In this document: piece by piece, positions 17,701 through 49,377 of the stretch | How positions within the stretch are numbered: position 1 is the stretch's first letter | Layout: the number at the start of each line of letters is the position of its first letter | NCBI RefSeq assembly: GCF_964204865.1 | Contig: NC_135260.1 | Span: 19,638,001-19,702,000, forward strand | Direction of reading: 5' to 3' | Source of the DNA: Styela clava | Lineage: Eukaryota; Chordata; Ascidiacea; Stolidobranchia; Styelidae | Length of the DNA: 64,000 nucleotides | The notes under the pieces: model-generated | Databases searched by the model: none | Told to the model about the DNA's origin: nothing | What the model saw: the letters and a program-made list of their open reading frames with translations, nothing else | Made by a program: the position numbers and the translations under genes

Positions 17701-19990
17701 TAAGTGATTAAAAAAATCAGGTCAGTACTATAACCTTAAGCTAATGTACAGTTCCTTATTTATGACATAAAGCTGACATATACTTGTCTTTTGAGTAAAT
17801 TATTTTAAAAAAGGATTGAATACCTTTGCAGTGTGAAACTCTTGTCTGATGAAATGTTGATGAATGAGCCAGTTTCTTCTTTCAACAACTGGGAGATCTA
17901 CAGCTACAATAGAAAAAGTGATTCTTTAGCATAAAATCGGAAATATTAAAACTAATTTGAGAAGCAAATATATTAGGCTAGGTATATTTAAAGTTATTAT
18001 TTTTTATAGACATATAAACCTCGCAATGAGTTTTAAACCCTTGCACTTCCATACATGACAATCATCAACATACGCATATTAGGCTAGGTATATTTAAAGT
18101 TATTATTTTTTATAGACATATAAACCTCGCAATGAGTTTTAAACCCTTGCACTTCCATACATGACAATCATCAACATACGCACAAGGTGACTTGCAGATT
18201 TAGGACCGGGAACTTCCAGCTTGAAGGCTACAGTTTCATGAAAATTTCATGTGTGTTGTTACACAAGTTTTTGTTAAATGCTGCAATTCTTAATAATGTG
18301 ACATCAACAAGTCTGGAAACAGCAAATTTACATTTTGACAATCCGCTATTTATGGTAATTAACATGGATTCAGATTCTGGCCACAGAAACTTGCACATTG
18401 GCATGATTTTTAGAGTATATTTTTGGTGTCGTAGTCTCCTGCATAAGCTGTGATGCATTTTGTGATATGGTAAGCAATGCAATAAAATTTTTCATCAACA
18501 AATACCGGTATACTACGAACGGATTGGAAGAAAAATGAGTCTAGTTGGCAGTGTAAAGATCCAGTTCCCATTCAAACTTGTTTAGACGTTTCATGTTTGA
18601 ATATATTTCTTTGTTTTGTTCACTTTTCATTCGAAATACCATAAAAAGAATACCATAATTATGTTTACATTTATCGTTTTGTTCGTTTTTGCAGACAAAT
18701 GACAACTGAACTATTTTTAGATTTTACATTTTACTTAAAAAAAGTAACAATTCTGGAATTTATTTGGCAAACTTTGGCAGAGAAATAGTTGAAGATATTG
18801 CAATGAAGGCTATTCATTCTTTGATAAGAATAATTAAACAAGCGCTGGTGCATGAATCAGTTGTTTACAACTTCTGCCTCTCTTTTGTTTATGTATAAAG
18901 GGTAAACATAGGTAGTATTTGATTTTATGACTAGTTTATAATTCCTTAAAATCAGTCCATATGTTTATAACAATAGACAATGAATAGTTAAGGAGGTGTT
19001 GGTTTTCGAACAGTTATTAAATTGGAATTCCAGACAACAATTAACAATAGGCTACAGCAATGAGTATCAACATCACCATTAAGCTAGAAAGAAAGCTTAT
19101 TTGAAACTGTATATACTTGAATATGCAATTCAAGAGTCCTGCTGCGCACTAACACAAATATATTTCTGTAAACGTATATTTCTGTAAACGTTACAGAAAT
19201 ATATTTGTGTTAGTGTGCAGCAGGACTCTTGAATTGCATATTATGGTATCTTATTCCTGCTACAGCATCCTTGCATTACATGCATACGGATCCACTAGCG
19301 CAAAGGCATAGAGAAAGGATTGGGAGTTAGTCTCGCGCAACCTCTACTGATCTGTATATACTTGTACTGTTATTAAAAAATTCAAATATTCTAATTCAAT
19401 CCGATTTGCATCGAAGTGTGATATTGAAATATGACAATATAGATATACCTTTTGCTTTTCCCCATATTATCAGTTCGAATTTCAAATTAAGGAATATTAA
19501 ACCCACAGCACCACAGTATTATAACAGCAATAATGATTTTTGATGACATCAAATTTTTACACAACTGCATGATAAAAAAAGAAGCAAGACGATGAGAGCA
19601 ATATTAAATATATCAAAATATTAAACATTTTAAGTTGTCCTGCATTACGGGATGTGTTAAATAATAAAATTCTTTCATGTATATAAGAATATTACTTACG
19701 TTTTTTTGTTCGAACTCTAGGTTTTGGAGTAGGAGGCTCTACTGTTACTTCTTCCTGGTTTTCTTTCGGATTTTCGATCTACGACAGGAATGTAAAAAAA
19801 ATTAATATCAAATTCATAACATTGCAGTAAAATAATCTGACACAAAAGGGAATTTATAATTATGTAGATATGACAATCCACATTTTTTTAACTTCTTTTT
19901 AAAATTTATGATGACAAGAATAGAATATCAGTGGCCTCACACAAAAAAATTAAAACCATGTACCTCCTCATTTTCTGTGGATCCGGGCAT
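8736..19990 (-). CDS. BBS4: BBS4, BBSome TPR subunit, 14 exons
   Basis: Tetratricopeptide subunit of the BBSome, the cargo adaptor for ciliary membrane trafficking; in vertebrates it binds pericentriolar PCM1. Exons, each with GT/AG and matching phase: 19990-19964, 19778-19700, 17903-17824, 17314-17139, 17072-16943, 16374-16254, 16111-15981, 13934-13782, 13238-13067, 12993-12924, 12354-12222, 11851-11740, 11608-11458, 8904-8736. They total 1704 nt, 567 residues, against 519 in human. Family landmarks in order: '[11 protein letters not shown]' (exon 3), '[13 protein letters not shown]' (exon 4), '[12 protein letters not shown]' (exon 5), 'LTTLGLLYL' (exon 7), '[17 protein letters not shown]' (exon 8), '[12 protein letters not shown]' (exon 9) and '[12 protein letters not shown]' (exon 12). 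Exons 13-14 form a Ser/Pro-rich tail. If the last intron is retained, translation stops at 11439 and gives 517 residues. A hydrophilic Glu/Pro-rich N-terminus precedes the TPRs. The first ATG is at 19990. Confidence 0.95.
9821..10199. mobile_element. hAT-type MITE with perfect 8-bp target duplication
   Basis: A 379-bp element with terminal inverted repeats: the left end is cagcgtttcccaaact and the right end is agtttgggaaacgctg. It is flanked by an identical 8-bp direct repeat, ccatagac, at 9813-9820 and 10200-10207. The 8-bp duplication and the CAG...CTG termini are diagnostic of hAT-superfamily insertions. It encodes no transposase, so it was mobilised in trans. It sits in the last BBS4 intron. 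Confidence 0.93.
10357..10725. repeat. MITE with ggacacgt inverted ends, copy 1
   Basis: Begins ggacacgt and ends acgtgtcc. It shares most of its interior with a second copy at 39724-40114, including 'aaaagtaatagccttct', 'tttcaaagcaattggtcc' and 'cataatattgaaacgatcg'. The flanking 'caagagagctacgc' is also shared, so the repeat unit may extend left to about 10333. No coding capacity. Confidence 0.65.
11101..11167. repeat. hAT-type terminal fragment
   Basis: Ends 'aagtttggtgacccctg'. Inverted, this gives the CAGGGGTCACCAAAC start of a common hAT family, preceded by 'gcccgcgg' as in related ends. The opposite terminus was not located with confidence, so boundaries to the left are unknown. Confidence 0.5.
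11204..11418 (+). repeat. Dispersed 'ggtgctcc' repeat
   Basis: Starts ggtgctcc and ends gggagtacc, giving short imperfect inverted termini. Internal blocks match 2138-2330, 15720-15835 and, in part, 55690-55774. The 'aaccctaacctgg' block followed by 'cacacac' or 'tacacatac' is characteristic. Probably a non-autonomous DNA element. Confidence 0.6.
13945..14294 (-). repeat. tRNA-derived SINE inside a BBS4 intron
   Basis: Full-length second copy of the SINE at 6361. The A box lies at about 14282-14271 and the B box at 14213-14202, on the same strand as BBS4. Its 3' tail of three atcct units ends 9-10 bases before the AG acceptor of BBS4 exon 8 (13936-13935). The tail therefore supplies most of the pyrimidine tract of that splice site. 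Confidence 0.88.
17971..18182. repeat. Perfect 106-bp tandem duplication
   Basis: The 106 bases starting 'tattaggctaggta' and ending 'caacatacgca' occur twice in a row (17971-18076 and 18077-18182) with no difference I can see. It lies in a BBS4 intron. The identity suggests a recent duplication or an assembly duplication. Confidence 0.9.
19120..19242. repeat. Near-perfect long hairpin (52-nt arms)
   Basis: Arms 19120-19171 and 19191-19242 are reverse complements over 52 bases with one difference (gcgcac against gcacac, which would still pair as G-U in one transcript orientation). The 19-base loop repeats the arm end 'tatttctgtaaacg'. It lies in BBS4 intron 2. It could be a palindromic MITE, or the intronic transcript could fold into a long hairpin. 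Confidence 0.85.
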
Positions 19991-22582: not shown

Positions 22583-23160
22583 ATTAAGTCATTTGGAGGA
22601 CTATTCTAATGTGTTGCATTTGTCAGTTAGTAATGGCTGAATGGCACAGAATACTGAAATATTACATCTGTTTTAATAAAAAATAATTCATATAAACAAA
22701 GTGATCATTGAATTGGAGGCAATGTACTTAAACGGCGTGTATCCTGAGATAAAATTTATATACAAGCAAACGATAATAGATACCGGTATAAGATTTTGGG
22801 ACCTACTGAAGTTTGGGACCTGAATTCAGGTTGTGTACCAGGTTGAGGTTCAGGTTATACGACATCTTGGTGCGCATACCGGTACCGTACTTCAGGAGCA
22901 CCAGATTTTGAATTATTGGAATTCAGCAGCTTGATCATAAGACAGATTTTCCACATACAGATATACCGTAGGGTACCAAATTGCTTAAGCCGCCAAATGT
23001 ACAACTACAAGCAAGGCAACCGGTACCGGTACAGCGGTACCGGTATGTTCCATTTGTTTCTTTCTAATGGCGTAATTGAAACAGGATATTACGAACAGTG
23101 AGGTAGCATTAGAAATAGCGCACAATGAACAATGAGGGTGTATTATTATCGCGTTGGTAC
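22583..23160. other. Intergenic with short palindromic repeats
   Basis: Contains a copy of the dispersed repeat ending 'aggagcacc' near 22905. There is also a cluster of accggtacc/ggtaccgg units at 23018-23045, and 'accggtat' near 22783. The last nine bases (23152-23160, cgttggtac) are the left target duplication of the transposon that follows. No gene seen. Confidence 0.5.
23152..23160. other. Left target-site duplication of the 9.95-kb element
   Basis: cgttggtac lies directly outside the left terminal inverted repeat. The sequence directly outside the right end (33112-33120) is cgctggtac, an 8 of 9 match. A duplication of about 9 bp is typical of Mutator-like elements. Confidence 0.75.
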
Positions 23161-23400
23161 ACCAAAGTTACCCTAGCAGACATCTCTCAGCAGATATCTC
23201 TCTCGTTTTCGGAACGGTGAAATAGGGTTGCCAGAAATCGATTTAACATTGCGTATAAAACGCGCTGCGGAAATATGAATGCTGGGTGAAATTCAGTTGC
23301 CAGATTTATGCCCTATTATAATCACCGTATTCCACGTAAACTTTCGTACTTTTCAATGGCCGGCCACATTAATAAAAGTGATAAAAAGGAAAACACATAA
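23161..23400 (+). repeat. Left terminal inverted repeat (unique part)
   Basis: Outer TIR of the element. It pairs with 32870-33111 on the other strand with only scattered differences over about 240 bases. It includes 'gaatgctgggtgaaattcag' and the mirrored 'tgatggtattatgtgttttcc' region. No coding sequence. Confidence 0.88.
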
Positions 23401-24420
23401 TACCATCATCTCGATCAAAGTTTAATGAACTTTGTATGTCGGAAAAATGATATGATTTCTTGTCAAACATGGCCCAAACAAGAATTATACATCGAAATCA
23501 CTAAATATCGGTATTACACCCAAAAATACTGCACTTTCCGACGACGTGCCCCACTTTTAGATAAGATATCCCAAAAGAGCATATTGTAAAGTCATCTCGA
23601 ACTGAGTTTCATGAAATTTGTATGGGGGGAAGATATAATGATATCTTCTCAAACATGGCCCAAACAACAATTTTACATCGAAATCACTAAATATCGGTAT
23701 TAAACCCAAAAATACTGCATTTTCCGATGACGTGCCCCACTTTTAGATAAGATATCTCAAAAGAGCATATTGTAAAGTCATCTCGATCCGAGTTTTATAA
23801 AATTTGTATGGGGGGAACATATAATAATATCTCCTCAAACATGGCCCAAACAAGAATTTTACATCGAAATCACTAAATATCGGTTTTAAACCCAAAAATT
23901 CTGCACTTTTCGATTACGTGCCCCACTTTTAGATAAGATATCTCAAAAGAGCATATTGTAAAGTCATCTCGATCCAAGTTTTATAAAATTTGTATGGGGG
24001 GAACATATAATAATATCTTCTCAAACATGGCCCAAACAAGAATTTTACATCGAAATCACTAAATATCGGTATTAAACCAAAAAATTCTGCACTTTTCGAT
24101 TACGTGCCCCACTTTTAGATAAGATATCTCAACTGAGTATATTGTGAAGTCATCTCGAACTAAGTTTCATAAAATTTGTATGGGGGGAACATATAATAAC
24201 ATCTTCTCAAGCATGGCCCAAACAAGAATTTTACATCGAAATCACTAAATATTGGTATTAAACCCAAAAATTCTGCACTTTTCGATTACGTGCCCTACTT
24301 TTAGATAAGATATCTCAAAAGAGCATATTGTAAAGTCATCTCGAACTAAGTTTCATAAAATTTGTATGGGGGGAACATATAATAATATCTTTTCAAACAT
24401 GGCCCAAACAAGAATTTTAA
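23401..24420 (+). repeat. Left array of 186-bp repeats (about 6 units)
   Basis: Units spaced 185-187 bp. Each contains 'catggcccaaacaag', 'acatcgaaatcactaaatat', 'acgtgccccacttttagat' and 'gtatggggggaac'. Anchor positions for 'catggccc' are near 23468, 23654, 23840, 24026, 24211 and 24398. The array stops abruptly within a unit at about 24420, where the SGNH coding sequence begins. Confidence 0.92.
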
Positions 24421-24425
24421 TATAG

Positions 24426-25173
24426 GTGGTCTCTCCGTCGCCTTCATCTCCGTTTTCGCTTTCGTCAATTTGTTTGCCGGGCGGCCAACTACGACATGGC
24501 GTGGCGGAGATTTTGGGGACGGAGTCGTTTTCCGGCGTGGATTATCTTTTGTTGGCTCTGGGGACCAACGATGTTGCAGGATCTGTTGGCTGGGGCAAAC
24601 AATCCCGAGTATACGCCGAGAAGCTGGTCGAAGCCAGCAAGCAGGCTTATCCGGGAGCCAAGGTTTGTTCCACAACTATATCTGGTCCAGTCCAGGTATA
24701 TTTCTGTAAATAAAAAAAATTTGTTGTTTCAATTTGATCCAAGTGATAAACTTTTTAGTACTTTTTTCTCGGCATCGTACCAGAGCAGTGATTGATGGAG
24801 CCTAATCATAAAATATAGATATTTTTTGGATGTACAAATCCACTTAATATTTGTCGGGTTGACAGCCAATGTAAGAGAATACATGCTTCATTTTCAGATA
24901 CTGTTATCGAAGATATTGTCCCAGTCAAAATGTTCCACTGCTGCAGCCAATAGGGACATGGATGCGATTGCCAAGCTGCACTCTATACCTCTTCTGGATC
25001 TTGACGTTGGCAGAAATCCTTCGTATTGGAGCGACCATTTACATCTGTCGGATCGTGGTTTGGCGAGATACATGCAGATTCTCGAGTCCGTAGTAGCAAG
25101 AATTGTACGAAAAGGTGGGACGTTTATGGTGTCATTATTTTTGAAAAACGCAACATTCAGGGTATACGCTTAA
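24426..25173 (+). CDS. Transposon SGNH/GDSL-like hydrolase, 5'-incomplete
   Basis: Two exons. The first ends at 24695 before gtatat and the second starts at 24898 after 'cattttcag'; the 202-nt intron restores the frame. Exon 1 contains 'LLLALGTNDV', which is SGNH block III (Gly-x-Asn-Asp), preceded by the typical 'PGG' turn. Exon 2 contains 'WSDHLHLSDRGLARY', which is block V with the catalytic Asp and His. The nucleophile block I (Gly-Asp-Ser) should lie about 40-60 residues before block III and is absent, because the repeat array abuts the start. Either a first exon was lost or the enzyme is inactive here. SGNH domains occur as accessory esterases in some retroelements. A role in this element is unknown. 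A further donor at about 25114 (aaaag|gtgg) suggests more exons downstream. Confidence 0.7.
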
Positions 25174-26038
25174 AAAAATTGTTATTACTATATATATATT
25201 CAACTTCCCACCTTTTCCCTGTATTTGCTGTTAGCTTTTGACATGTACATACAAGAAATCACTTTTTTTCAATTTCGGTTGAGATGTGTTTCATGTATTC
25301 TATGTCAAAAATCTTGAAATGACCTAAAATTCACCAAAAAAATTAAAATTATTTAATTAAAATTATTTTTAAAAAACAAATCTTCTTTTTATCAATTCAG
25401 GTTATTTTAGTCACTAAAAAGTTATTCAAAATGAGCTTGCATTAATTCTTCGAAATTTTACACATAAAACAAAAGAAACATATCTTTGAAATATCAAAAT
25501 AATAAAAAATAGCACAAGCCTGCAATTATACTGAAAGTATAATTTTGGGGAAATAGCCCCTATTTTTTAAATACAAAATTAAAAAAATATTGTTCGTTTT
25601 CTCCAGTTTTTGTGGCGTAATGAATCAAAAAATATTTATTAGAAGCCGGTAACAAAATGAGTTTTACACAGTGTAATGTATTGAAATTATAATGATGATT
25701 CGTGCAAATGTTAACATATGCTAACAAAAATTATTTTTAGACAAAACTCCCGAATCTACACAAATAACTACTGGAAGCATATTATGTAAGTATGACTCTT
25801 GCTTGTTTTTGAAGAATGATTTCCCCGCTGTAGGTTTTTCTGTTGGAACTGGGACAAAATTAATCCCTACTTCTAGTAGATCGATTTCTCGACGAAGGAA
25901 AAGGATCATCTGGAAGCCCTTCCTCCTCGACTCTGTTTCATCCTTCAGCACTCAGCCCCACCCACCCCTCGTATCTTTGGTGTTCTATGCCAGTGTGGTT
26001 GTTCGGCCAAAAACTTCAGTTTCTTTGCAACCTGCGCC
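25174..26038. other. Inter-gene spacer in transposon core, possible transposase 5' exons
   Basis: AT-rich to about 25740, then more GC-balanced. An acceptor-like 'atttttag' at 25740 and open frames from about 25803 may mark 5' exons of the transposase gene. The frame used at 26039 is open back to 25877 and includes a Cys-rich stretch (Cys-x-Cys-x-Cys) just upstream. Exon structure is unresolved. Confidence 0.35.
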
Positions 26039-28692
26039 ATGTTTGCGTCCCTCTCATTCCCGACCATCTTACGCCGAAAGGTCTCTACGGCCTCATCTTT
26101 CACTACTTCTGTCGTTTCTACTGGGGCTATTTCTGATATTACTATGCTGCACGGGAATGAACAGCCAAAACATACTAGCAGGTCTTTTTTTTCTCCTCCT
26201 CCCTCTTTTAGTAGATCTGATAAAGTCAAAAGTAATTGTCCCATTCCACGGAAGAAGTTACAGAGATCATCTTCGCCTGATAAAAATGCTTACCCTTCTT
26301 TAATTTATAAACAGTCGGGCGGTGTGTTTTCCGAAAACAAATTGTCAACTCAGTCGTTGGTAACTGCAATAAATGATATGGGATCATTTAATCCAAATTC
26401 CCAAGCAGCCTGGAGCAAATTAGCAAAACTAATTTGGAACAAAAAATTTGCCAAAGGTGAATTGAAAAATTATATTCGAAAATTGCAACATTTTTGGAAC
26501 AATAACTCAAAAACACTGAAAATCAATGAAAATTCATTTCCTGACACATCAGGCGATGAAGGATTTAAAAATACCAAAAGGGATGACCATTCTTCTGATT
26601 TTCATTCTGAAATTAAAATTAGCAATTCGACTACCAAAATTTGTCACAAAGAAAACACACCGCCTACGTCCCTGAAAGAGAGCTGTGCTAACAAATTGAA
26701 GCAGGTTAGTAACAATTCATACATATTTTTAGACGCGCATGGAACTGATTTTGATGATAAGGTGCGCAAACCTCAGTGCAAGCACATGGTATTTGGGAAC
26801 GTGAAAATCCAATAAAAAATGCAAAATTTAAAATGGACACCAGGAATTGGAACAGTCTTTTCAACTCCGTTGCTGGGCAAAAAATAAAAAATTCTAATTG
26901 GGCTGATGTTTTTAGAGAAGCTATCAAAGAGAGTGACCCTTACTGTTCATATGCATTTCGATGGCACACAGTAAATTCTGGAATATTGGCTAATCGTATT
27001 TTTGCTTGCAGTGGGCATTGTTGCTTCACAGGTTGCAGTCGCAAAATTTCTGTAGTATCCTATCGCAGAGACCTCCGCATGTTCCATGTTAGGTATTCGG
27101 GAAATAGGTATCACGTTGGTATTAAATCAATCCGACTTAAGGGAAAACGGCGGAAGGAATTGAAAGGAAAATTGATTCATTCTCTTCCTCGTAATATGTA
27201 TTTGAAAAAAATTGGTGCGCTCTCTTCCGATGTTTTTCATTCTGGTAATAGGGACGATGCTCCGTCACAGGCTGTATCAAAAAAGGCGCGATATGAGGCT
27301 AGAATGGTAAATGTCCCAGATTTCGATAATCAATGGAATTCGCTTGACTGTTTAAGAAAATTTCAGGCCGAAAAATGCAATAATAAGTTAATTCGTGGAA
27401 CCTTGCAGCAAATTTCACGAGTTCCACCAGGTATTATGTTGTGGTCGGAACAGTCTGTAAGAATATTTATCCATAATGCTCAAAATGACATAATTTATAT
27501 TGACGCTACTGGTGGGATACTTCCTTCCGGTGCCCAAAGTCCATATTACATTTACGAAATAGAAAATCGCCATCCCCAAAAGGGCAAGTCCCCATTTGCT
27601 GTTGCAACGTTTGTTACGAATCGGCACAACATTGCAAATATTTCGAACTTTTTGTCACAATTTCGTTCTGATGTTTCGAAATTGACCAAACGATTTCCCG
27701 CAAAGGCTTTTATATGTGATGGTAGTATGGCCCTCATCAAATCAATAATTCAAGTAATAATGCGCGAAATTCTTGAGGCCTACATATCGCGCTGTTATTC
27801 GGTCATTCAAGGCAGTGCGAATTTGGATATGCTTTCCCGACTCTTTCTTCACCTATGCACCAGCCATACCATGAAAAATTTTAAGCAATTAGCTTGTAGG
27901 GTTCCAAAAGTAAAACGTGAACTCATGTATATATTTGGGTTGCTTGTTTGCTGCAAATGAAATGAAAAAACTTCGTAAAATCGTTTACCATTTGACAATA
28001 ATATTAATAGCCCTGAATTCAAATCTTGTTGCTAATAGCTGGTCTTACTTGAAAAAGCGTATCGAAAAACAAGATATTCTATCCCCACCCGAATGTGTTT
28101 TCAATCAGGATGCATCTGATGAACTTCTACCAGATGCAGACTGGAGTGAGAGGAATCCTTTTACCGAATTACTATATCTGGATATTGCTAGAGCTACAAA
28201 ATTGCTACTGACGCTGGTTTATGTGGTTCAAACTGTTTTTATTGCCCGGAAGTAATGACTAAATTTAAAACATTTTATGTGCCCAAAATTTGTTTGTGGG
28301 GAGCTTTGCTAGTAGGTGATTTGGGCAGGTATGGTAAAACAATAGGCTATGAAAAGTATAGACAATTTTACGCTAAATCCTCGGTCTCTAACAAACTGAA
28401 CTTAGCAAAAGATAATCGAACGCAGGGAATAATGGAGAAAAGTCAACAGGAACTTAAGCGTACTCGTTTTAACAACAGGCGGTTTAAACGTCTTGACGAG
28501 ATCGCTGTAGTGTATGATCAACTTCATGATTCCCTAATTAGGGAATATCAGGATAATTTGATTGTACGTCCAAAAAAGTCGAAAACAGAGACCAAATTGA
28601 CCAAGAAATTGAGAAATGGGGTAAAAGATGTAGAAATCAGGGTAGTGATAAATCGAAAGGTATCTATTTACAGCCACCGTCTAGACCTCTGA
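26039..28692 (+). pseudogene. MULE-like DDE transposase, frameshifted
   Basis: Readable in pieces: 26039-26815, 26761-27960, about 27930-28255 and 28255-28554. The N-terminal piece is a Ser/Lys/Asn-rich region. The second begins with a Cys/His cluster (Cys-x3-Cys-Cys-x3-Cys followed by 'NRYH') that could bind zinc, like the N-terminal fingers of MULE transposases. The catalytic core follows: 'IIYIDATGG' (first Asp), 'KAFICDGSMALIKSI' (second Asp) and 'LHLCTSHTMKNFKQ', the Cys/His-x2-His motif that follows in MULE enzymes. The third acidic residue was not placed. Frame changes occur near 26780, 27930 and 28250; tiny introns are possible for the first, but no GT/AG pair restored phase. It probably continues toward the Ulp1 domain, since frame switching places both in one reading path. 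Confidence 0.75.
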
Positions 28693-29563
28693 GAGCTTCT
28701 CGCCCAATAGAATTGCCTGATAAAGATATATTGAAAACGGACATCACTTCTGAGGCGTCTTCTCAATCAATGGCGTTACGATTTAGTTCACCCCAAATTG
28801 ATTTCCGAAACTTGGTGCATAAGTCCAAAATTGACTTTGAAATATTGAGCTCCAATACTAATTTCCGAAAGCATTGGTTCACATCGGACATTGTGAATAC
28901 CGCATCGCTAATTTTGTCATCGCAGTACCCAAATGCTGACGGCCTCCAAAGCACGACACTTTATACCACGATATCTGGTCCAAAAGTCTACGCTCCGTTC
29001 AGAAAATACATTCAAATTCTGTTCGTGCATGATAATCACTGGGTAGCTGCGTCTAGCATATTTTCGTTCAATCAGAATATCATTCAAATCTATGATAGTT
29101 CGTACATGAAATACACGGAAAAAGACGAATATGTCATTTCGCTTCTCATGCGACCAACATTAGGAACAAACAAACTACAGATTGAATTTCCTCCCGTCCA
29201 GCAACAAACGTTAGGTGCATCATGCGGACCATTTGCAATGAGTTTTTGCATAGCTCTCTGCGAAAGAATTAGACCAGAGGATATAGTTTTTGATGAAAAA
29301 TATCTGCGAAACAAAATTCATGATGGTATAAGTTCTGAACGATTTTTACCAAATTTTGACATCGATCGAAACCACAATAAAGCTAATACGAAATTTACAG
29401 ATATTCAGATTTTTTGCAACTGCCGACTGCCCTACATACAAAATCAGACTATGGTAGAATGCACTTCATGTTTGGAATGGTACCACCCGAAATGTTGCAA
29501 TACTCCGGTGCCAACTGAGGCAACTGAATTGAATGGAATTGCGAGAAGTGCAATCGAAGCTGA
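28557..29563 (+). pseudogene. Ulp1/SENP-like (C48) cysteine peptidase with C-terminal PHD finger
   Basis: The frame is open from 28557. Counting from 28713, the peptidase triad is visible: His109 in 'VHDNHWV', Asp128 in 'IYDSSY', a Gln-rich oxyanion segment 'VQQQT' and Cys171 in 'GASCGPFAM'. A PHD finger follows at about 29410-29551: Cys-x-Cys, then 'MVECTSCLEWYHPKCC'. The expected last pair Trp-x-Cys-x2-Cys is not in this frame. It is encoded in the next frame at 29534-29551, followed directly by TGA at 29561. A one-base shift between about 29485 and 29533 therefore broke the end of the protein, and the frame running on to 29780 is spurious. Ulp1 domains accompany several MULE and KDZ-type transposons and may remove SUMO from host or element proteins. 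The PHD finger suggests chromatin targeting. Confidence 0.8.
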
Positions 29564-29810
29564 ATTTTTTCACCACATGCCTAAAACTCTAATTATTTTC
29601 CAGATCCACCGGCTTCATAGACACGCAAATGATCAGTCTGGTTTACCTTTTGCAATTATGCCAAAGTTAGGGGTTTTCTCTCTCGATCGTCGCCAGTTTG
29701 AGATGAAAACCACCACGATGGTTGGCACCTTGACGTGGTGTGGTGGCTTACTACTAAGACCAACCTTCTTAAAATGTTGACGATCGGGCCAGTTTTAAGC
29801 GAGAAAAAAT

Positions 29811-32800
29811 ATACAATTTTACATTAATCCCCCCATACAATTTTTACGAAACTTGGTTCGAGATGACTTCATAAAATGCTCTTTTGGGATATCTTATCTA
29901 AAAGTGGGGCACGTAATCGAAAAGTGCAGAATATTTGGGTTTAATACCGATATTTAGTAATTTCGATGTAAAATTCTTGTTTGGGCCATGTTTGAGAAGA
30001 TATTATTATATGTTCCCCCCATACAAATTTTATGAAACTCAGTTCGAGATGACTTCACAATATGCTCTTTTGATATATCTTATCTAAAAGTGGGGCACGT
30101 AATCGAAAAGTGCAGAATTTTTGGGTTTAATACCGATATTTAGTGATTTCGATGTAAAATTCTTGTTTGGGCCATGTTTGAGAAGATATTATTATATGTT
30201 CCCCTCATACAATTTTTATGAAACTTAGTTCGAGACGACTTTACAATATGCTCTTTTGAGATATCTTATTTAAAAGTGGGGCACGTAATCGAAAAGTGCA
30301 GAATTTTTGGGTTTAATACCGATATTTAGTGATTTCGATGTAAAATTCTTGTTTGGGCCATGTTTGAGAAGATATTATTATATGTTCCCCACATACAAAT
30401 TTTATGAAACTCAGTTCGAGATGACTTTACAATATGGTCTTTTGAGATATCTTATCTAAAAGTGGGGCACGTAATCTAAAAGTGCAGAATTGTTGGGTTT
30501 AATACCGATATTTAGTGATTTCGATGTAAAATTCTTGTTTGGGACATGTTTGAGTAGATATTATTATATGTTCCCCCCATACAATTTTTATGAAACTTAG
30601 TTCGAGATGACTTTACAATATGCTCGTTTGAGATATCTTATTTAAAAGTGGGGCACGTAACCGAAAAGTGCTGAATTTTTGGGTTTAATACCGATATTTA
30701 GTGATTTCGATGTAAAATTCTTGTTTGGGCCATGTTTGAGAAGATATTATTTTATGTTCCCCCCATACAAATTTTATAAAACTTGGATCGAGATGACTTT
30801 ACAATATGCTCGTTTGAGATATCTTTTCTAAAAGTGGGGCACGTCATCGGAAAGTGCAGTTTTTTGGGGTTTAATACCGATAATTAGTGATTTCGATGTA
30901 AAATTCTTGTTTGGGCCATGTTTGAGAAGATATTATTATATGTTCCCCCAATACAAATTTTATAAAACTTGGATCGAGATGACTTTACAATATGCTCATT
31001 TGACATATCTGATCTAAAATTGGGGCACGTAATCAAAAAGTGCAGAATTTTTGGGTATAATACCGATATTTAGTGATTTCGATGTAAAATTATTGCTTGG
31101 GCCATGTTTGAGAGAATATTATTATATGTTCCCCCCATACAAATTTTATAAAACTTGGATCGAGATGACTTTACAATATGCTCTTTTGAGATATCTTATC
31201 TAAAAGTGGGGCACGTAATCGAAAAGTGCAGTTTTTTGGGGTTTAATACCGATAATTAGTGATTTCGATGTAAAATTCTTGTTTGGGCCATGTTTGAGAA
31301 GATATTATTATATGTTCCCCCCATACAAATTTTATAAAACTTGGATCGAGATGACTTTACAATATGCTCTTTTGACATATCTTATCTAAAATTGGGGCAC
31401 GTAATCAAAAAGTGCAGAATTTTTGGGTTTAATACCGATATTTAGTGATTTCGATGTAAAATTCTTGTTTGGGCCATGTTTGAGAAGATATTATTATATG
31501 TTCCCCCCATACAAATTTTATAAAACTTGGATCGAGATGACTTTACGATATGCTCTTTTGAGATATCTTATCTAAAATTGGGGCACGTAATCAAAAAGTG
31601 CAGAATTTTTGGGTTTAATAATAATACCGATATTTAGTGATTTCGATGTAAAATTCTTGCTTGGGCCATGTTTGAGAAGTTATTATTATATGTTCCCCCC
31701 ATACAAATTTTATAACAAACTTGGATCGAGATGATTTTACAATATGCTCTTTTGAGATATCTTATCTAAAAGTGGGGCACGTCATCGGAAAGTGCAGTAT
31801 TTTTGGGTGTCATACCGATATTTAGTGATTTCGATGTAAAATTCTTGTTTGGGCCATGTTTGAGAAGATATTATTATATGTTCCCCCCATACAAATTTTA
31901 TAAAACTTGGATCGAGATGACTTTACAATATGCTCGTTTGAGATATCTTATCTAAAAGTGGGGCACGTCATCGGAAAGTGCAGTTTTTTTGGGTTTAATA
32001 CCGATAATTAGTGATTTCGATGTAAAATTCTTGTTTGGGCCATGTTTGAGAAGATATTATTATATCTCCCCCCCCCCCCCATAAAAAATTTTATAAAACT
32101 TGGATCGAGATGACTTTACAATATGCTCTTTTGACATATCTTATCTAAAATTGGGGCACGTAATCAAAAAGTGCAGAATTTTTGGGTTTAATACCGATAT
32201 TTAGTGATTTCGATGTAAAATTCTTGCTTGGGCCATGTTTGAGAAGATATTATTATATGTTCCCCCCATACAAATTTTATAAAACTTGGATCGAGATGAT
32301 TTTACAATATGCTCTTTTGAGATATCTTATCTAAAAGTGGGGCACGTAATCGAAAAGTGCAGAATTTTTGGGTTTAATACCGATATTTAGTGATTTCGAT
32401 GTAAAATTCTTGTTTGGGCCATGTTTGAGAAGATATTATTATATGTTCCCCCCCTACAAATTTTATAACAAACTTGGATCGAGATGATTTTACAAAATGC
32501 TCTTTTGAGATATCTTATCTAAAAGTGGGGCACGTAATCGAAAAGTGCTGAATTTTTGGGTTCAATACCGATATTTAGTGATTTCGGTGTAAAATTCTTG
32601 TTTGGACCATGTTTGAGAAGATAATATTATATCTTCCCCCCATACAAATTTTATGAAACTTAGTTCGAGATGACTTTACAATATGCTCTTTTGAGATATC
32701 TTATCTAAAAGTGGGGCACGTCATCGGAAAGTGCAGTATTTTTGGGTGTCATACCGATATTTAGTGATTTTGATGTATAATTCTTGTTTGGGCCATGTTT

Positions 32801-32869
32801 GAAAAGAAATCATATCATTTTTCCGACATACAAAGTTTATTAAACTTTGATCGAGATGATGGTATTATG
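29811..32869 (-). repeat. Right array of 186-bp repeats (about 16 units)
   Basis: Inverted relative to the left array. Anchors 'gggccatg' at 29983, 30169 and 30355 give a period of exactly 186. Units contain 'acgtaatcgaaaagtgcag', 'aataccgatatttagtgatt' and 'tgttccccccatac'. They differ by point changes and small indels, such as the ataata insertion near 31620 and a C-run at 32068. The array is nearly three times longer than the left one. Confidence 0.92.
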
Positions 32870-33111
32870 TGTTTTCCTTTTATCACTTTTATAAATGTGG
32901 CCGGCCATTGAAAATTACGAAAGTTTACGTGGAATACGGAAAGCAGTGATTATAATCGGTCATAAATCTGGCAACTGAATTTCACCCAGCATTCATATTT
33001 TCCGCAGCGCGTTTTATACGCAATGTTAAATCGTTTTCTGGCAACCCTATATTACCGTTCCGAAAACGAGAGAGATGTCTGCTGAGAGATGTCTGCTAAG
33101 GTAACTTTGGT
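32870..33111 (-). repeat. Right terminal inverted repeat (unique part)
   Basis: Mirror of 23161-23400. It ends ggtaactttggt, with the right target duplication (cgctggtac, 33112-33120) directly outside. A cluster of ggtacggtaccggtacc follows, so the element landed beside the same palindromic motif that occurs left of it at 23018-23045. Confidence 0.88.
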
Positions 33112-33848
33112 CGCTGGTACGGTACCGGTACCGTAACAATGCGTGGTGATTGAACTGATTGAACCGTGTCAGAAAATCCATTCATGCGAAACCCTCGTTA
33201 TTACGACGGTCATTCGTTCGTCCTTGAAAGAAGTAGGCACAACGAACGCCGGAAACGTCCAAGTTTCCAGACCCTTACAGATATGCGATATTTAAATTGA
33301 ACAATAGTAGGCTACATAAGTACACAACAAAAATATTGACATATTTGTAAGTTTTTTTGCCTATATTCCTCGGACCTCATTAGGTATAAGTGCTATCCCT
33401 ATCATATAGTTAAGACGATGGGGGTAATAATGGCGAGGTCCTATTATTCCCCAAATAAATAAAACAACGCAAAACGGGAACAGTCTTGTTCCTCCAAAAA
33501 CTTTCCAGAAATAGTGTGGTTCTATTCTTCTCAAGGCAGATTCATTCTTTCATATAACTTGAAAAGATTGGGTTCTTTTTATACCATAGTATCTACTTGT
33601 TTATGATAGACGGAGTCTTGTTCGAAGAGCAGTTAACAAACACGCCAGAGAATGAGAACATTCTTGTCCGATAGATTTATTTCTTTACAAACGACATAAT
33701 AGCTGTCTACATACTCGTGACTGCTTGTTCAGAGCCTTGTACAGATTACTCAGAAAAAAATGCGATACATATATTATAGGGCAACAAAGATTCGACCCTA
33801 TCTGCGTGTCCACACTCCCGTGTTATTGAACACACGTTAACAGAGTTT

Positions 33849-40465: not shown

Positions 40466-42934
40466 ATGAAGGATTTATTGCAAAATATTTTGGCATCCTA
40501 TCTCCACAGTCCTCTATCTTATTCTCTTGGATTTGTGGTGTTGGGACTCTTTACTCACAGAGTGTTGTCGTGGTTGTTCCCTGCCAGAAATTCAGAATCA
40601 CAAATCTCAGCTGGGAATAATGAAAATGGGCCCCTTCGTGACATGGTCTTGCCATCAAGGTGTTTAAAATGGAGAGTATTCAACTTTCGTGGAAAATGGC
40701 ACACCAGTGTGTCAGCAATCGTAGACCCACCTACTTTCCATGATTGGAAACCGGTTCTTGTATTAGCAAATCGAAAAAGTGGTTCAAATCAAGGCTCTAA
40801 TATATTGAAGCAATGCAGCATGCTCTTGAACCAAGTTCAAGTAAATATAATTTTTTGGTTTGTTGTTGCTATCTCTGGTAGAATGGGCAATTTTAAATGC
40901 CTTTCTAAAGTACTAGGTACTGATTACTACCACGATAAACAACTCTATGATTTGAATTTTCAAGTGATAAAATAGTTTTGAGGATCTGTGTTGTAATGGC
41001 AAGGATTCACATGACATCAGTTTACACTTACAGACTCAACAAACAACCTTAGCTGGTTTTAATGTAATATAAAATAACTGTACCATGCGCTTTTATCCTA
41101 GTTAAGTATAAGTTTATTTCGACTACATAATCACATTTGACAGATAAAAACAAATAAATAAGAACTGATTAGGAAATCAGGGGAGCAAACAAAACCTTAG
41201 ATAAGGTTTATAATGTACAAAATATAAGATGGAAGGTTTTGTCAAGAGGAAGTGGTGTTTACTCACCTAAAATTATTAAGTTATTTCACACACGCTCACA
41301 TGCACCCACCAGGCACACACACACCCAACCACTGAGAAGTTATTTAAGTAAGAATAAAACGCCATAAATTTAGGGTATACTATACAGTAAACAAAAAAAA
41401 TTATTTGCCACACCATATTGATAATTTTGTAATGGTTGTCATTGCCAAATTGATCGATCTTCTAATTGTTAATTAAAATATAAAAGGAAGATTCTATTGA
41501 AAACATATTGCCAAGCTGATTATAGTTGGAGTCAAATGCCAAGTTACCCAACCAAAGTTGCCAGAATTGGGTGCATGAAGAGGTGGGCGAGACCATTTCA
41601 GTCCCCAAATTGGACCCTATTATTGCCAAATTATAGTCCAGATTGTAATAAGTAATTAATGCACTGAACTATTTATTACCGGCCAAAAAGTAATTGTTTA
41701 ATTAAATGGGATGTATTGTCATTATATAGCGATGGATAGATGATCTATGACGACATTCTGCTTGGGACAGAGAAAAATTTATCACACCATGCAAAAAACA
41801 CACAAAATTTTACTATCTAACGTATCTATACCTTGGCCAACAAGTCAACTCAAACACCAATACCATGCCTTATAGTTACAAACTATAGTCAACTCTTGCC
41901 ATAAGCGATGTAACATGCCAAATTTGTCTTAGCGGGTGTTTGTCATCTGAAAGGCAAATTCTAACATTTTTGCATTTATTTGAATACAGGTGCATGATTT
42001 AAGCAGCAAACCAGCAGCAGCAACTTTGGAACTATGTGAATTGCTTCCACAAACCACGTTTATTGTGCTTGTATGCGGTGGAGATGGCAGTGTAAACTGG
42101 GTGTTGACTACAATAGATGAGCTAAACTTAACAACACAGCCGCTGGTATCAGTGTTGCCACTCGGGACAGGTAACGACCTATCAAACATGCTGGGGTATG
42201 GAGCTAGTTTTGACGAGTCAGATACAATGGAAAATTTTTTGTCACAGTTACGGCACACGCACCCCATAAATATTGATCGTTGGAAGATTAACATAAGATA
42301 CAAAAAAACATATTTAGGATGGGGAAGACAGACAAAGAGCATATTTATGACTAATTACTTTTCCATTGGATGTGATGCTTTAATCTCATTAAACTTTCAT
42401 AATCAAAGACAAAAAAAGCCATCACTTTTCACAAAGCGTAGCTTAAACAAGCTATTCTATTTTGGGTATGGTGCAATAGATGTTTTGGAGCAGCACTGTA
42501 AAGATTTGAATAAATATATTGAGCTATGGCTTGACGATGAAAAAGTGGATTTGCCAGATTTGGAAGGAATTTTGTTTCTGAATATATCATCATGGGGAGG
42601 TGGCTGCCAAATATGGGATAACTGGTCAGATGGTGATGTACAGTGGGATAAATCCATTCCTGATGATGGAAGAATAGAAGTTATGGGTTTGATTTCAAGT
42701 TTTCATATGGCACAGATTCAAGTTAATTTGGCTGAGCCAGTGCGCTTGGGGCAAGTGAAAAAGGCTTCCATAATCATAAAAACGAGAGTTCCTGCTCAGG
42801 CAGATGGGGAGCCTTGGGAACAGGATCCGTGTCGTATAGATATAAATTTTCACAAACAAGCTACTTTGCTCAAGAGGGAAGCTGCTAAAAATGATGAAGA
42901 AGATGGTGAAGTGTTACAGCTTGAAACTGGTTGA
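40466..42934 (+). CDS. DGKE: Diacylglycerol kinase epsilon-like, lacking C1 domains
   Basis: Phosphorylates diacylglycerol to phosphatidic acid. The vertebrate epsilon isoform prefers arachidonoyl-DAG and feeds the phosphatidylinositol cycle at ER and plasma membrane. Exons 40466-40840 and 41990-42934 join in phase 0 (donor gtaaat, acceptor atacag) to give 439 residues against 567 in human. Residues about 18-38 form the N-terminal membrane segment typical of epsilon. 'VLVLANRKSGSNQG' (about 97-110) opens the catalytic domain. The ATP-binding 'CGGDGS' lies at about 154-159, then 'LPLGTGNDLSNMLG' and 'DGEPWEQ'. Epsilon-specific sequence continues to the end. The two Cys-rich C1 domains that normally sit between membrane segment and catalytic domain are missing, and only about 58 residues link the two. 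The short tail is acidic. Identity as a DGK is firm and the epsilon assignment is strong. Confidence 0.93.
40841..41989 (+). other. DGKE intron
   Basis: The 1149-nt single intron, AT-rich, with a short CA-rich stretch near 41290-41330. I looked for C1-domain exons (paired Cys-x2-Cys/His patterns in phase 0) and found none. No repeat family recognised. Confidence 0.7.
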
Positions 42935-43673: not shown

Positions 43674-45041
43674 TCAAGCTGTAGTGGAATCTGTATTAAC
43701 ATAACCTTGTTTAACCAAGAAATCGAACAGTCTTCTAGTTTTGTTTACATCAATTTTAACAATTGTTCTTGCTTGAGACAGCTTCAGAGTTCCTGATCGT
43801 TCAAACTCCGATACCAGAAGGCATTTATATCGCAAAAATGCCTCTGGAACAATTCTACAAGATTCACAAAATTCTTTTTCAATAGTACTCAACTTCTGTA
43901 CCCCAGGCAAATCTGAAATGTCAATTGGGTTTATAGACTTTCGAGAAGAGGGTATAACTGGTCCAAGGGTGGAGGACTGACTCGTGTCCAATGATTGCCT
44001 GTGCAACCATTGTAATAATGCGGCATGGTCATTCTTGTATGATAATATTTCAGTTAGACAAGAACTATATGGCTCTACTCGTCGAGTGGACTTGAGTTTT
44101 TCGTATAATTTGGTTACTCTGTGTGAAGTAATCCCTGCTTTTCTATATTCTTTCAGTTTTTGGACTCTTTTAATCAAGCGATGCTCTACACAAAATCCTG
44201 CAAATATTTTGTCATGTGCAATCGGATGTTGAAGTCTCATTAAAGGTCGCAACTTTTCTTCTAATTCTTTCTCATAGTTTGCAAGCTTTCGCAAATATTG
44301 CATAACATGATTATTCACATTAATTAATCCGTGAGTCCTCATTATATCTTTTCTTCTTTTACGTTCTGAGAGCCTTGATTGATAAATTTTCACCATTTCC
44401 AACTTTAAAGATTTTAGTACAGGCCAATCATCGGGTGCAAAATGAACATCTTTTATGCCCCATTCTGCTCCATTTAAGTATTCTTCCGTAAAATCTCCTC
44501 TTGCCGCAAGGTATCCCGCCATGTCTTGTGCTCTGTGAGATTCTGGCAATGGACGACAAGGTTCTCCACTTGCTTTAAATGGAATGGGAGGACATATTTT
44601 TGCAGCAGGACGGCAAGGCAATTCAGGCAAAGGATATCTTGCATTTAAGATGTAGCATTTCACATAATGACCTTCACATTCATGCTTTGTTTTTGTTCTA
44701 ACTTGTTTAGCAACTGCGGACCAGTTTCCAGCTCCACAGTCCGATAAACTGTCCAACAAACGCATTTCTTCAGCTGATGACCAACCATATTCCAATAATG
44801 GAAAACTGCCTGTAATTATTTCATATTTGTGATTGCTTTTATGTTTACCATTTTCAAATCCTCGTGCAAAACATGATAAACAAAGTAAGTAAGGCTCTGT
44901 GTCACAATCTATACATCTTATGAAAGGTTCATTTAGATATGATGAACAGCCAGGACAAGGATCCCGATCAGCTGGATCAACAACTGGATATTTTGCCTTT
45001 GCAATATCAATTCCTAGTGATTTTGAGGTAATTGGCATCAT
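43674..45041 (-). CDS. TADA2A: TADA2A, ADA2 adaptor of SAGA/ATAC-type HAT complexes
   Basis: Transcriptional adaptor that couples the GCN5/PCAF acetyltransferase to ADA3 in the nucleus. A single exon codes for 455 residues (human 443) from the ATG at 45041. The frame is open further upstream to 45155, but a 'tgttattacag' acceptor at 45082 shows those codons are intronic or leader. Domains in order: a ZZ zinc finger at about 27-73 ('CPGC', 'FIRCIDCD', 'LCLSCFARG', then a His pair), a SANT/Myb domain at about 85-130 ('GWSSAEEMRLLDSLSDCGAGNW'-type, helix 3 ending 'KCYI'), a basic coiled middle, and a SWIRM domain in the last about 80 residues ('FCESCRIVPEAFLRYK', 'FDFLVKQGYVN'). It follows MLH1 on the same strand, 325 bases downstream of its stop. 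Confidence 0.95.
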   Translation of the reverse strand: MMPITSKSLGIDIAKAKYPVVDPADRDPCPGCSSYLNEPFIRCIDCDTEPYLLCLSCFARGFENGKHKSNHKYEIITGSFPLLEYGWSSAEEMRLLDSLSDCGAGNWSAVAKQVRTKTKHECEGHYVKCYILNARYPLPELPCRPAAKICPPIPFKASGEPCRPLPESHRAQDMAGYLAARGDFTEEYLNGAEWGIKDVHFAPDDWPVLKSLKLEMVKIYQSRLSERKRRKDIMRTHGLINVNNHVMQYLRKLANYEKELEEKLRPLMRLQHPIAHDKIFAGFCVEHRLIKRVQKLKEYRKAGITSHRVTKLYEKLKSTRRVEPYSSCLTEILSYKNDHAALLQWLHRQSLDTSQSSTLGPVIPSSRKSINPIDISDLPGVQKLSTIEKEFCESCRIVPEAFLRYKCLLVSEFERSGTLKLSQARTIVKIDVNKTRRLFDFLVKQGYVNTDSTTA

Positions 45042-45365
45042 GTGAATTGTACAATAATTAAGATAGATATTGAGTAAACACCTGTAATAACAAAGAGAAA
45101 ATGTTTGAAAAACAATGAAAAAACGAGTTTTGTAACAAGTAACCCTATTAATCAATCCAGTTGCTTCTAGTTGCTAAACACTGATAGTACAACAAGAAAT
45201 CCATGGCAGTTATAGTGACTGAATTGCATTTAAAGATTCTACATCATATATAATATAGGAATGAACATATATCTTCAATGACCCAAAGTCATTACTACAT
45301 GGGAAATAGGCTTTTCTCGGCAAATACCAAGGATATCATTTAAAGGGTACTAATAAGCAAGAGGT
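45042..45365 (-). promoter_or_regulatory. MLH1-TADA2A spacer with splice acceptor
   Basis: Only 324 bases separate the MLH1 stop from the TADA2A ATG. On the minus strand a pyrimidine-rich tract ending ttattacag stops at 45082, 41 bases before the ATG, with no obvious upstream exon in the gap. It can be a 5'-UTR intron acceptor or a trans-splice acceptor, and the two cannot be told apart from DNA alone. Confidence 0.4.
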
Positions 45366-47606: not shown

Positions 47607-49377
47607 GTTGGAAGTGCTACTTTGAAATTGCTTTTAATTTACATAACTTAATTGAAAGATTTCATATTAAAATAATTGCACATTTATTATAATTCAAGTT
47701 CATTTTACATAACAGTAAATATTGCACACATCAGACTGCAAATGAGCTAATATTTAAGGATAGTGAGTTAAAATATTGATGCCAACATAAGTAATAAAAG
47801 ATATATGTATGGTTAAAGTATCTTACATAAAATAATAAGCAATTATATAACAAAAGACTACAATTGGATCAATCAATGAGCTTTTATGCCACCTTTTTAT
47901 AACATCCAAAATATTAAATAGTGTTTTATATCAGGGGTGTCAAACTCGTTGGTTTCCGAGGGCCGCATTGCATTTTGGGAGTTGTGCAAAGGGCCCAAAC
48001 AGTTTGTGATATATTTGATAATGTATACTTGAAGCATATTTTCAGATAGGTGTAGTTCGTGACATACCGAATGAAGTTTTATCATTTTCTTAAATTTCAA
48101 ATGCCATTTACATATAAATTTTCGCATTTTACTATTATTTCAATTTACAGCATTTTATACAAAAAATCATAAATTTTCATGTACAACTATCCATAAAATT
48201 TTTGAACAAAGTTTCGATAAGCATAAGGAAACAATAATACATATACGGAAAATGACTTAATCTACGGTAAATGTATAGACCTAAATTTTACAAGAATACT
48301 ACAGATAAACTCAATGTTTGTTTTATTTTATATGTAATGACGTTTGGCATCTCTTTTGTGCCCCCAGCTTTCTAATATCAGGCTGAAATGATTTTACAGT
48401 ACCAACTCTAATTAATGAGGTCACATGATCATCCGTTAATCTGGATCGTTGAGAATGTTTTATTTAATTTAAGTAATGCAAAAATATTACGTTTATCATT
48501 TCATGTATAGATCCGTAAATCAAACAAATGACTGAGTACCAGGCCAGACATTTCTTACCTTTACGTGGCATAGAACTGTTTGAGTTATGATTGATATTAA
48601 TTTTTAGTAACTAGGTAGTTGTATAATTATAATAATAGGTTCCAAACACATACAAATTTTCAGTTCGAATTTTTTTTAAATTTGGCATATCGACTTCTGA
48701 GCTTATTCTGATGTCTTCTTATATTGATTTTTTCATTGTACTGATGGAAATGTGACAAATTAAACAATGTGCTGTAGAATTTTGAGAAATACAGAAATAT
48801 TTCAACTCCTATTTTTCCTAAAAAATCCCATCTTCTCCATGTACTTTGCGTTTTATTTAAATTCTGAAGCTTTTTTTCAAGTATTCTTTTGCTAGCTTGA
48901 GGTGTATCCATAATTGGGTCAGATTGAAAACAAGAAAATTACAATTTTCCAAATCTATTTTCAGTAAATTGTCGTTTTCTGTGTGACTAATCAATTTCAC
49001 TTTAAAAGGTTAGAAAAATGTATTACATTTAGATAATAAAAAAAACGTACAAAATACTACAATTATTGTTAAGCGTTCGAGGGCCGCATTGGAAGCTCTC
49101 TGGGGCCACATGCGGCCCGCGGGCCGCAAGTTTGACACCCCTGTTTTATATAACATCGAAAAACCTAATAGCATCACCAGAATTCAAAGCAGTAGGCTAC
49201 ATCGTATAAAACACTATTTAATACATAATATGCTTTGATTTATGGCACTATATTTGACGAATTTGCCTTTGAGCCTTTATTTAAACATATTAGAATACAT
49301 GGTATGATGTTAGTTGGGCGAGATACCAGAATAACTTGAAATTGTGATAATCATTAAAAAATATTCAATGAGGCACA
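47607..49377. other. MLH1-ARSK intergenic, mostly one hAT-type element
   Basis: AT-rich sequence containing the 1212-bp non-autonomous element described separately. The remaining flanks are short and hold no coding sequence. The MLH1 promoter must lie in the roughly 300 bases between 47607 and 47931, or overlap the element. Confidence 0.6.
47932..49143 (-). mobile_element. Non-autonomous hAT-type element with perfect 8-bp TSD
   Basis: Starts caggggtgtcaaactcg and ends aagtttgacacccctg, 1212 bp. It is flanked by an identical 8-bp repeat, ttttatat, at 47924-47931 and 49144-49151. Subterminal 'gggccgcattg' blocks occur at both ends. No transposase frame. It is a relative of 35906-37018 in the opposite orientation. 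The intact target duplication and near-matching ends show a younger insertion than that copy. Confidence 0.93.

Follow-up and report, generated by a model that had tools for sequence, protein, structure and literature searches.

A decayed, probably Rehavkus-like transposon of Styela clava with SGNH hydrolase, Ulp1 and PHD domains predicted on its transposase

We analysed a stretch of 64,000 nucleotides from the ascidian Styela clava (assembly GCF_964204865.1, contig NC_135260.1, positions 19,638,001 to 19,702,000; hereafter the window). At 23161-33111 the window holds a DNA transposon with inverted ends of about 245 bp, inverted arrays of 186-bp repeats and a 9-bp flanking duplication that matches at 8 of 9 positions. 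The original prediction had described this element as a Mutator-like element (MULE) with three plus-strand modules, namely an SGNH hydrolase, a DDE transposase and an Ulp1 peptidase fused to a PHD finger. The three modules are present and keep their order and direction in several copies, but by predicted splice sites and frame they most likely form one four-exon spliced gene. The encoded protein is predicted to contain, in this order, an SGNH hydrolase, a linker, a WRKY-like zinc finger with a DDE transposase, an Ulp1 domain and a PHD finger, in total about 1.6-1.75 thousand residues. Overall, we consider the element to be probably a decayed copy of a Rehavkus-like, Mutator-related cut-and-paste transposon with a single multidomain protein. 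Its features are the following.

23152..23160, no strand: left 9-bp target-site duplication (TSD), CGTTGGTAC; flank comparison and TSD test in the family
23161..23405, plus strand: left terminal inverted repeat (TIR), single-copy part, starting ACCAAAGTTACC; end alignment
23406..24419, plus strand: left subterminal tandem array, 5.5 units of 186 bp, in inverted orientation to the right array
24426..24662, plus strand: SGNH exon 2, with the Gly block LPGG and the GTND block; comparison with relatives
24898..25114, plus strand: SGNH exon 3, with block V, WSDHLHLSD; comparison with relatives
25741..26769, plus strand: start of exon 4 (predicted phase-1 acceptor) and N-terminal linker/N-domain, decayed
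26770..28600, plus strand: transposase, a WRKY/FLYWCH-like zinc finger and then the DDE core, with frame changes in the window copy
26978..27128, no strand: recombination breakpoint zone; identity in 150-base blocks to the C17 and C18 copies described below
27502-27504 (D), 27718-27720 (D), 27856-27867 (C..H) and 28435-28437 (E), plus strand: transposase catalytic codons
29010..29321, plus strand: Ulp1 (C48) catalytic domain, with His (HDNHW), Asp (YDSS) and Cys (GASCGPF)
29421..29519, plus strand: PHD finger (Pfam stretch), shortened by a frame change in the window copy
29828..32859, minus strand: right subterminal tandem array, 16.2 units of 186 bp
32860..33111, minus strand: right TIR; end alignment
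33112..33120, no strand: right 9-bp TSD, CGCTGGTAC; flank comparison and TSD test in the family

Ends, relatives and mosaic structure of the element

The long matching TIRs that had been proposed were confirmed by alignment: the sequence from 23161 onward and the reverse complement ending at 33111 are identical at 235 of 244 aligned bases, with three gaps. A genome search (376.6 Mb) with the first 260 bases of the element, which had been suggested as a check, gave 40 scored matches among 72 candidates; eight other copies with both ends were read. Across nine TIR-delimited copies the TSD is perfect in six, 8/9 in two (the window, with CGTTGGTAC on the left and CGCTGGTAC on the right, and C1:28517708) and 2/9 in C18:17366034. 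As a control, the neighbouring nine bases were compared in the seven non-window copies besides C17, and here just 1-4 of 9 positions match. Because TSDs recur in other copies (9/9 in six of the eight) while the adjacent 9-mers hardly match, the imperfect duplication of the window copy is very likely real, as had been claimed. GGTACC-rich repeats flank the element on both sides (23019-23050 and 33117-33140), and the insertion may sit within another repeat.

The longest TIR-delimited copy read, at C17:357806-372189 (below, the C17 copy), spans 14,384 bp, has window-like ends and is flanked by a 9/9 TSD, ATATAGATA. Its arrays, one on each side, comprise 17.5 and 16.5 units of 185 bp. Given this length, the window-like ends and the longer arrays, the window copy can be regarded as a shorter version.

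The window copy is a decayed recombinant of two subfamilies. In 150-base blocks, it is 83-91% identical to the C18 copy and 52-73% to the C17 copy before 26978; from 27128 onward, C17 is the closer one at 88-97%, against 62-79% for C18 (86% in a single block). A further copy, at C4:15993922-15998969, is an internal-deletion copy of the window type, lacking 24.3-25.6 kb as well as the coding sequence beyond 28.4 kb. As the C4 copy matches the window at 93-99% on both sides of the breakpoint, up to 28.3 kb, the exchange predates the split between these two copies. Decay of the window copy is evident in several places. Near 26075, about 330 bp are missing that the C4 and C18 copies have. From 26770 onward, the coding part aligns to the protein of the C13 copy in five pieces over three frames. 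In relatives, the serine block lies in SGNH exon 1. No such exon was found in the window copy, whose exon 2, from 24426, follows closely on the left array (last base 24419). Of the SGNH module originally reported, exons 2 and 3 are therefore present, but block I is missing.

Domains and the predicted spliced gene

The catalytic residues of the transposase are spaced D-72-D-239-E, with a CxxH between the second D and the E, which we take to be a mark of MULEs. Searching the genome with the transposase frame gave 104 scored matches, among which one locus can be represented by several pieces. The D of DATG, the D of DGS and the C..H are invariant both in an alignment of 15 relatives (A1) and in one of 20 (A2). 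The E (TQGxxE or a near form) is found in 14 of 15 rows of A1, the remaining row ending early with a gap at this place, and its motif is found in all 19 loci of a second set. Structure prediction was carried out with AlphaFold. The first model, of transposase, Ulp1 and PHD together (914 aa), had a mean pLDDT of 52 and was good for the DDE core only; therefore a second model (AlphaFold2, 20 sequences) was made of the transposase alone, with a pLDDT of 73 and a pTM of 0.65. The best PDB fold match of this second model is the ISCth4 transposase (E 0.012), which we assume to belong to the IS256 family. Next come three rows of WRKY DNA-binding domains (E 0.026-0.08, WRKY18 at 0.026; probability 1.00). 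An IS256-like transposase fold and a WRKY/FLYWCH-type finger are features of MULEs.

An unannotated bracovirus protein in BFVD, O92526, also matches the transposase model (E 1.1e-8 over 566 columns, structure comparison only) and is possibly a Mutator-like transposase in a polydnavirus. Scanning IMG/VR with the transposase alignment gave five pattern matches and no confirmed relatives.

In the window frames, Ulp1 (PF02902) scores over the Pfam cut-off (E 2e-5, 25.0 bits against 20.7; 25.9 bits in C17) and its His, Asp and Cys presumably have the catalytic roles. The PHD finger (PF00628) falls just under its cut-off (E 1.4e-4, 22.3 bits against 24), likewise under it in C17, and over it in the C1 subfamily. 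Thus, the peptidase and the finger named in the original prediction can be recognized, but the part comprising transposase, Ulp1 and PHD is spread over three frames in this copy. The solved fingers nearest to that of C17 are those of PHF2, PHF8 and EBS, with BPTF lower down. Fingers of this type are readers of H3K4 methylation.

For the SGNH hydrolase (PF13472, Lipase_GDSL_2), the window frames give 21.5 bits (E 3.6e-4), under the cut-off of 32.9. In the case of C17, three SGNH exons lie upstream of the transposase. Exon 1 starts MRGYRTRPVAYPKG and carries the serine block SDS, exon 2 contains the LPGG and GTND blocks, and exon 3 the DGLH block; spliced together, they reach 41.9 bits. The Ser, Gly, Asn and His of SGNH are kept, as judged by eye, in C17, C1 and C8. 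A sequence search of the PDB gave weak matches only, with a best E of 0.053. To describe selection, ratios of nonsynonymous to synonymous substitution rates (dN/dS) were calculated by NG86. These were 0.10 for the C17-window pair (exons 2-3, 151 codons, at a dS of 2.74, thus near saturation) and, for exon 2 alone with 79 codons each, 0.15 for C17-C18 and 0.14 for window-C18. The SGNH domain is thus apparently under purifying selection.

To see how regularly SGNH accompanies the transposase, 72 transposase loci were taken, 37 picked from the 104 matches and 35 from the 103 of a second search, leaving out second pieces of a locus and weaker matches, and compared with all 94 SGNH matches. An SGNH match on the same strand lies up to 15 kb upstream at 22 loci (8/22 close, 6/15 middle and 8/35 distant ones); downstream on the same strand there is none, and antisense one. 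As to the question raised at the outset, whether all copies carry SGNH, not every copy has an SGNH match. Among the other 50 loci are the C4 deletion copy, incomplete transposase fragments and lineages so divergent that a query with the C17 SGNH may overlook them. Among copies with a long frame, exon 3 alone is matched at C13:1617603 and C16:20847303, and no SGNH match was found at C10:4447210 and C2:30839188. Transposase and Ulp1 are accompanied by no SGNH match, for instance, at C8:9283401, C3:13485410, C14:21726894 and C1:31685249, where SGNH may have been lost by deletion. Copies without an SGNH or Ulp1 match, which the original prediction had named as speaking against it, do therefore exist; the C4 copy lacks both and is an internal-deletion copy.

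Repeated SGNH exon matches also cluster at C5:5492643-5524835 and C9:20725060-20764454. Near the first lies one transposase match (C5:5535371), near the second none among the matches listed. These clusters could be either tandem duplications of a part of the element or a host SGNH array.

Several observations point to one spliced gene. In seven copies, the transposase match and the Ulp1-PHD match fall into a single open frame (1,423, 1,278, 1,278, 1,267, 1,267, 1,230 and 1,182 aa). In C17 the long frame is not unbroken and consists of two overlapping open reading frames (ORFs) of 337 and 1,230 aa. Exon borders are GT/AG and lie, by eye, at equivalent places in C17, C1 and C8, and for exons 2-3 also in the window. 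The exon 1-2 and 2-3 junctions have phases 0 and 0, the window contributing to the latter only. The exon 3-4 junction has phase 1 in C17, C13, the window and C8, and phase 2 at a different place in C1. When spliced in silico, single frames result in C13 (1,618 aa, phases 0,0,1), in the C1 subfamily, which is 49% identical (1,752 aa, 0,0,2), and in C8 of a sister lineage (2,066 aa, 0,0,1). The strongest case for the predicted fusion of SGNH and transposase is C1: here the exon carrying SGNH block V continues open for about 280 codons beyond the SGNH part, and the following ORF contains no Met until residue 50, where, as judged by eye, the conserved N-domain lies. In C8, the N-domain starts at residue 80 (by eye) and the first Met is at 178. 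That the modules belong to the element is supported by the same order and direction of SGNH, transposase and Ulp1 in the C17, C13, C18 and C1:28524432 copies. Altogether, predicted splice sites and frame indicate that SGNH, Ulp1 and PHD would be domains of the transposase protein, instead of the cargo they had been thought to be.

The transposase of the sister lineage is about 30% (genomic search) or 22% (alignment) identical. Its frames reach 1,950 aa. The two that were read through (C18 and C8) encode first PHD, then the transposase, an Ulp1-like domain and a ubiquitin-specific protease (USP). UCH (PF00443) is matched in 7 of the 15 members of A1, with a best E of 5.3e-20, and C48 in 3; the Cys and His boxes of UCH, like the Cys of the Ulp1-like part, were assigned by eye. 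Two copies, C18:14237105 and C1:9184057, show 100% identity, at the precision given, over 406 residues, which suggests recent movement. SGNH matches lie 4-13 kb upstream of the transposase match. At C8:13397317-13401782, four repeats of about 1.1-1.4 kb stand between the SGNH exons and the transposase ORF, and would fall within an intron of about 7 kb if the gene is spliced as modelled. Upstream of the sister-lineage copy in C18:14235001-14244000 (reverse complement, 1835-3592) there is a reverse-transcriptase ORF with a GIY-YIG-like end, by eye Penelope-like.

Relation to known elements and alternative explanations

Rehavkus elements have a 9-bp TSD, a TIR of 26-400 bp, a minisatellite by the TIR, a PHD finger in the transposase and one ORF; the few known ones come from arthropods and annelids and are described in Repbase only (PMC6446971). 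Rehavkus-1_TC of Tribolium is 9.5 kb long and has a 164-bp unit in its inverted termini, in arrays of mostly five and eight monomers (PMC10218199). The window family resembles Rehavkus (in Repbase, Rehavkus-1_TC and Rehavkus-1_HR) in its 9-bp TSD, in a TIR of about 245 bp followed by 186-bp units on both sides (185-bp arrays in C17) and in a protein with a PHD finger. If spliced as predicted, its gene would have one frame, where Rehavkus has one ORF. As this anatomy is that of an already described Mutator-related group, the lineage is not wholly new; we call it Rehavkus-like on the basis of anatomy. In contrast to the window family and its sister lineage, the passages on Rehavkus in PMC6446971 mention no SGNH, Ulp1 or ubiquitin protease domain, and the terms SGNH, lipase and peptidase have no occurrence in its main text. 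A survey of arthropod MULEs reports lengths of 1.4-10.0 kb, and its main text is without the terms SGNH, ULP and PHD (PMC13359780).

Ulp1, in some cases with PHD, has been described on the transposases of Ginger1 and of Mutator elements from hydra, lancelet and plants (PMC2836005), and as here both are C-terminal on a DDE transposase. Ginger differs in having a Gypsy-type integrase, and SGNH is absent from the main text of that paper. The same source reports a transposase_11 of Trichomonas with a peptidase C19, which, like the sister lineage, joins a transposase with a ubiquitin peptidase; this is another transposase type, from a protist, and its description there mentions no Ulp1, PHD or SGNH. 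SGNH hydrolases are encoded by retroelements as well: an SGNH esterase in the ORF1p of the long interspersed element (LINE) ZfL2-1 binds phospholipid and liposomes (PMC3905857), and GDSL ORF3 is found in long terminal repeat (LTR) and Penelope elements of rotifers (PMC5408684). In these cases SGNH is located in ORF1p or in an extra ORF, with no link to a DDE transposase in the accounts given.

In open-licence PubMed Central, no SGNH on a DDE transposase or in a Mutator/Rehavkus element was found among the matches listed; Repbase Reports and most subscription papers are outside this scope. Helitrons are rolling-circle elements without a DDE transposase. The texim SGNH genes associated with fish Helitrons (PMC4021074) are likewise SGNH hydrolases mobilised by a DNA transposon, but in that source they are genes of their own, on Helitrons and in fish only. 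Two further candidates were rejected as precedents: PMC11939994 concerns a plant host gene with an insertion, and PMC7599744 merely cites the texim paper. Within the literature covered, we therefore did not find SGNH on a DDE transposase, nor the combination of ubiquitin protease and Ulp1-like domain of the sister lineage. Regarding the undescribed lineage that had been proposed, the SGNH part holds in this sense, but the Rehavkus anatomy and Ulp1 with PHD on Mutator transposases (PMC2836005) were already published.

Several results weigh against a Rehavkus-like element with one multidomain protein. The Pfam MULE model has no match at E<=5 for the transposase frames tested, nor at E<=0.1 among 15 relatives, and the window transposase frame has no Pfam match at all at E<=1. 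Likewise, no PDB fold match of the transposase model passes E 1e-3. In the C1 subfamily, Pfam gives neither C48 nor GDSL in the frames scanned (for GDSL, exon 3 alone), so that the SGNH exons and Ulp1-PHD were identified there by 46-58% and 40-42% identity, respectively, to the C17 and window proteins; also, SGNH block V is without its Asp in this subfamily. The dN/dS pairs are short or near saturation, as stated above, and three further pairs were too saturated to be used. To these come the 50 of 72 loci without an SGNH match, the weak donor site of C8 and, in C17 and C8, an unspliced exon-3 frame that soon stops after the donor (in C8 after NRGS).

Because of this early stop, a stand-alone SGNH protein is possible, and SGNH could be a separate, co-mobilised ORF of a two-gene element; we regard this as unlikely, though it deserves attention. 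The distance of 4-13 kb in the sister lineage, with tandem repeats of about 1.1 kb in between in the one copy read, would fit such an arrangement. It is opposed by the phase-matched donors and acceptors in C13, C1, C8 and window exons 2-4, by the C1 exon that stays open beyond SGNH and the ORF after it, in which residue 50 is the first Met, and by the N-domain of C8, which begins well before the first Met. Much less credible is an SGNH fragment captured from a host gene in the style of a Pack-MULE passenger, without a role of its own. Mutator-like elements do tend to capture such fragments (PMC6446971), and most loci have no SGNH match, but low dN/dS in all three pairs, the conserved Ser, Gly, Asn and His, and the equivalent positions of the three exons where the transposase is 46-49% (C1) or about 22% (C8) identical to that of C17 argue otherwise.

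That the transposase belongs to another DDE superfamily with Ulp1 and PHD (Ginger, KDZ or hAT/P-like) seems to us quite improbable. Its fold matches are weak and the Pfam MULE model finds nothing, and Ginger1 transposases have a C-terminal Ulp1 and, in one listed family, a PHD finger (PMC2836005). Nevertheless, the 9-bp TSD, the order of the fold matches (ISCth4, then WRKY-type fingers) and the D-72-D-239-E spacing with CxxH favour Mutator, and no Ginger-type (Gypsy) integrase, KDZ or hAT row occurs among the Pfam matches at E<=5. A match to the Pfam MULE model is also not strictly defining for Mutator-like elements. The MULE-type assignment of the original prediction therefore keeps its Mutator-type ends, TSD and CxxH, and lacks the Pfam match. 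Finally, it is extremely unlikely that the window element consists of several nested or abutting elements. The window copy does change from one subfamily to the other near 27.0 kb, but the C4 copy has the same mosaic, the order and direction of the modules are constant in four copies, and in C17 one TIR pair and one TSD enclose all modules. No nested insertion with its own TSD was seen between modules in the copies read, although no systematic search for such TSDs was made.

Possible mechanism and other features of the window

For the Rehavkus-like element with one spliced gene, a mechanism can be sketched from what is read directly in the sequence, namely ends, TSDs, arrays, domains, largely conserved catalytic residues, intron places and phases, and low SGNH dN/dS. 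The exons would be spliced into one protein. Its WRKY-like zinc finger would bind the TIR or the arrays, the latter serving as repeated binding sites or as spacing DNA, and the DDE core would cut and join with a 9-bp stagger. The PHD finger may tether the complex to H3K4-methylated, active chromatin. In the spirit of a proposal made for Ginger (PMC2836005), Ulp1, and USP where present, could strip SUMO or ubiquitin from the transposase, from silencing factors or from repair proteins. The weakest step concerns SGNH, which might hydrolyse an ester or acyl group, or bind membrane lipid, and so place or release the transposase complex. By analogy with ZfL2-1, lipid or acyl binding or hydrolysis is the role of SGNH that we favour, although we hold it to be less likely than not. 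Somewhat more doubtful still is the full picture of an ancient lineage whose transposase is an enzyme assembly of 1.6-2.1 thousand residues, in which a lipid/ester hydrolase is combined with a chromatin reader, a protease for SUMO and, in one branch, one for ubiquitin, and which needs SGNH activity for transposition.

If SGNH activity were needed, membrane or acyl chemistry would be a part of cut-and-paste transposition, in parallel to the ORF1 esterases of LINEs. Several retroelements that are not related to one another are reported to encode SGNH hydrolases, whose role there has not been settled. If SGNH is a selected N-terminal domain of a transposase, explanations that require RNA or reverse transcription drop out and the role becomes testable. 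Such proteins would moreover link transposition to SUMO, ubiquitin and histone reading, and the gene model together with the ubiquitin-protease branch would supply a coding anatomy for Rehavkus-like elements.

Outside the element, the window contains five long single ORFs, at 45366-47633 (minus strand), 43674-45173 (minus), 3078-4880 (minus), 49378-50997 (minus) and 41984-42934 (plus), presumably encoding, in this order, MLH1, TADA2, DDX56, an arylsulfatase and a diacylglycerol kinase. Much of the length of several of them appears to be free of introns, and for an animal genome of such size this would be unusual. At 17970-18182, there is a perfect two-copy tandem repeat of 106 bp.

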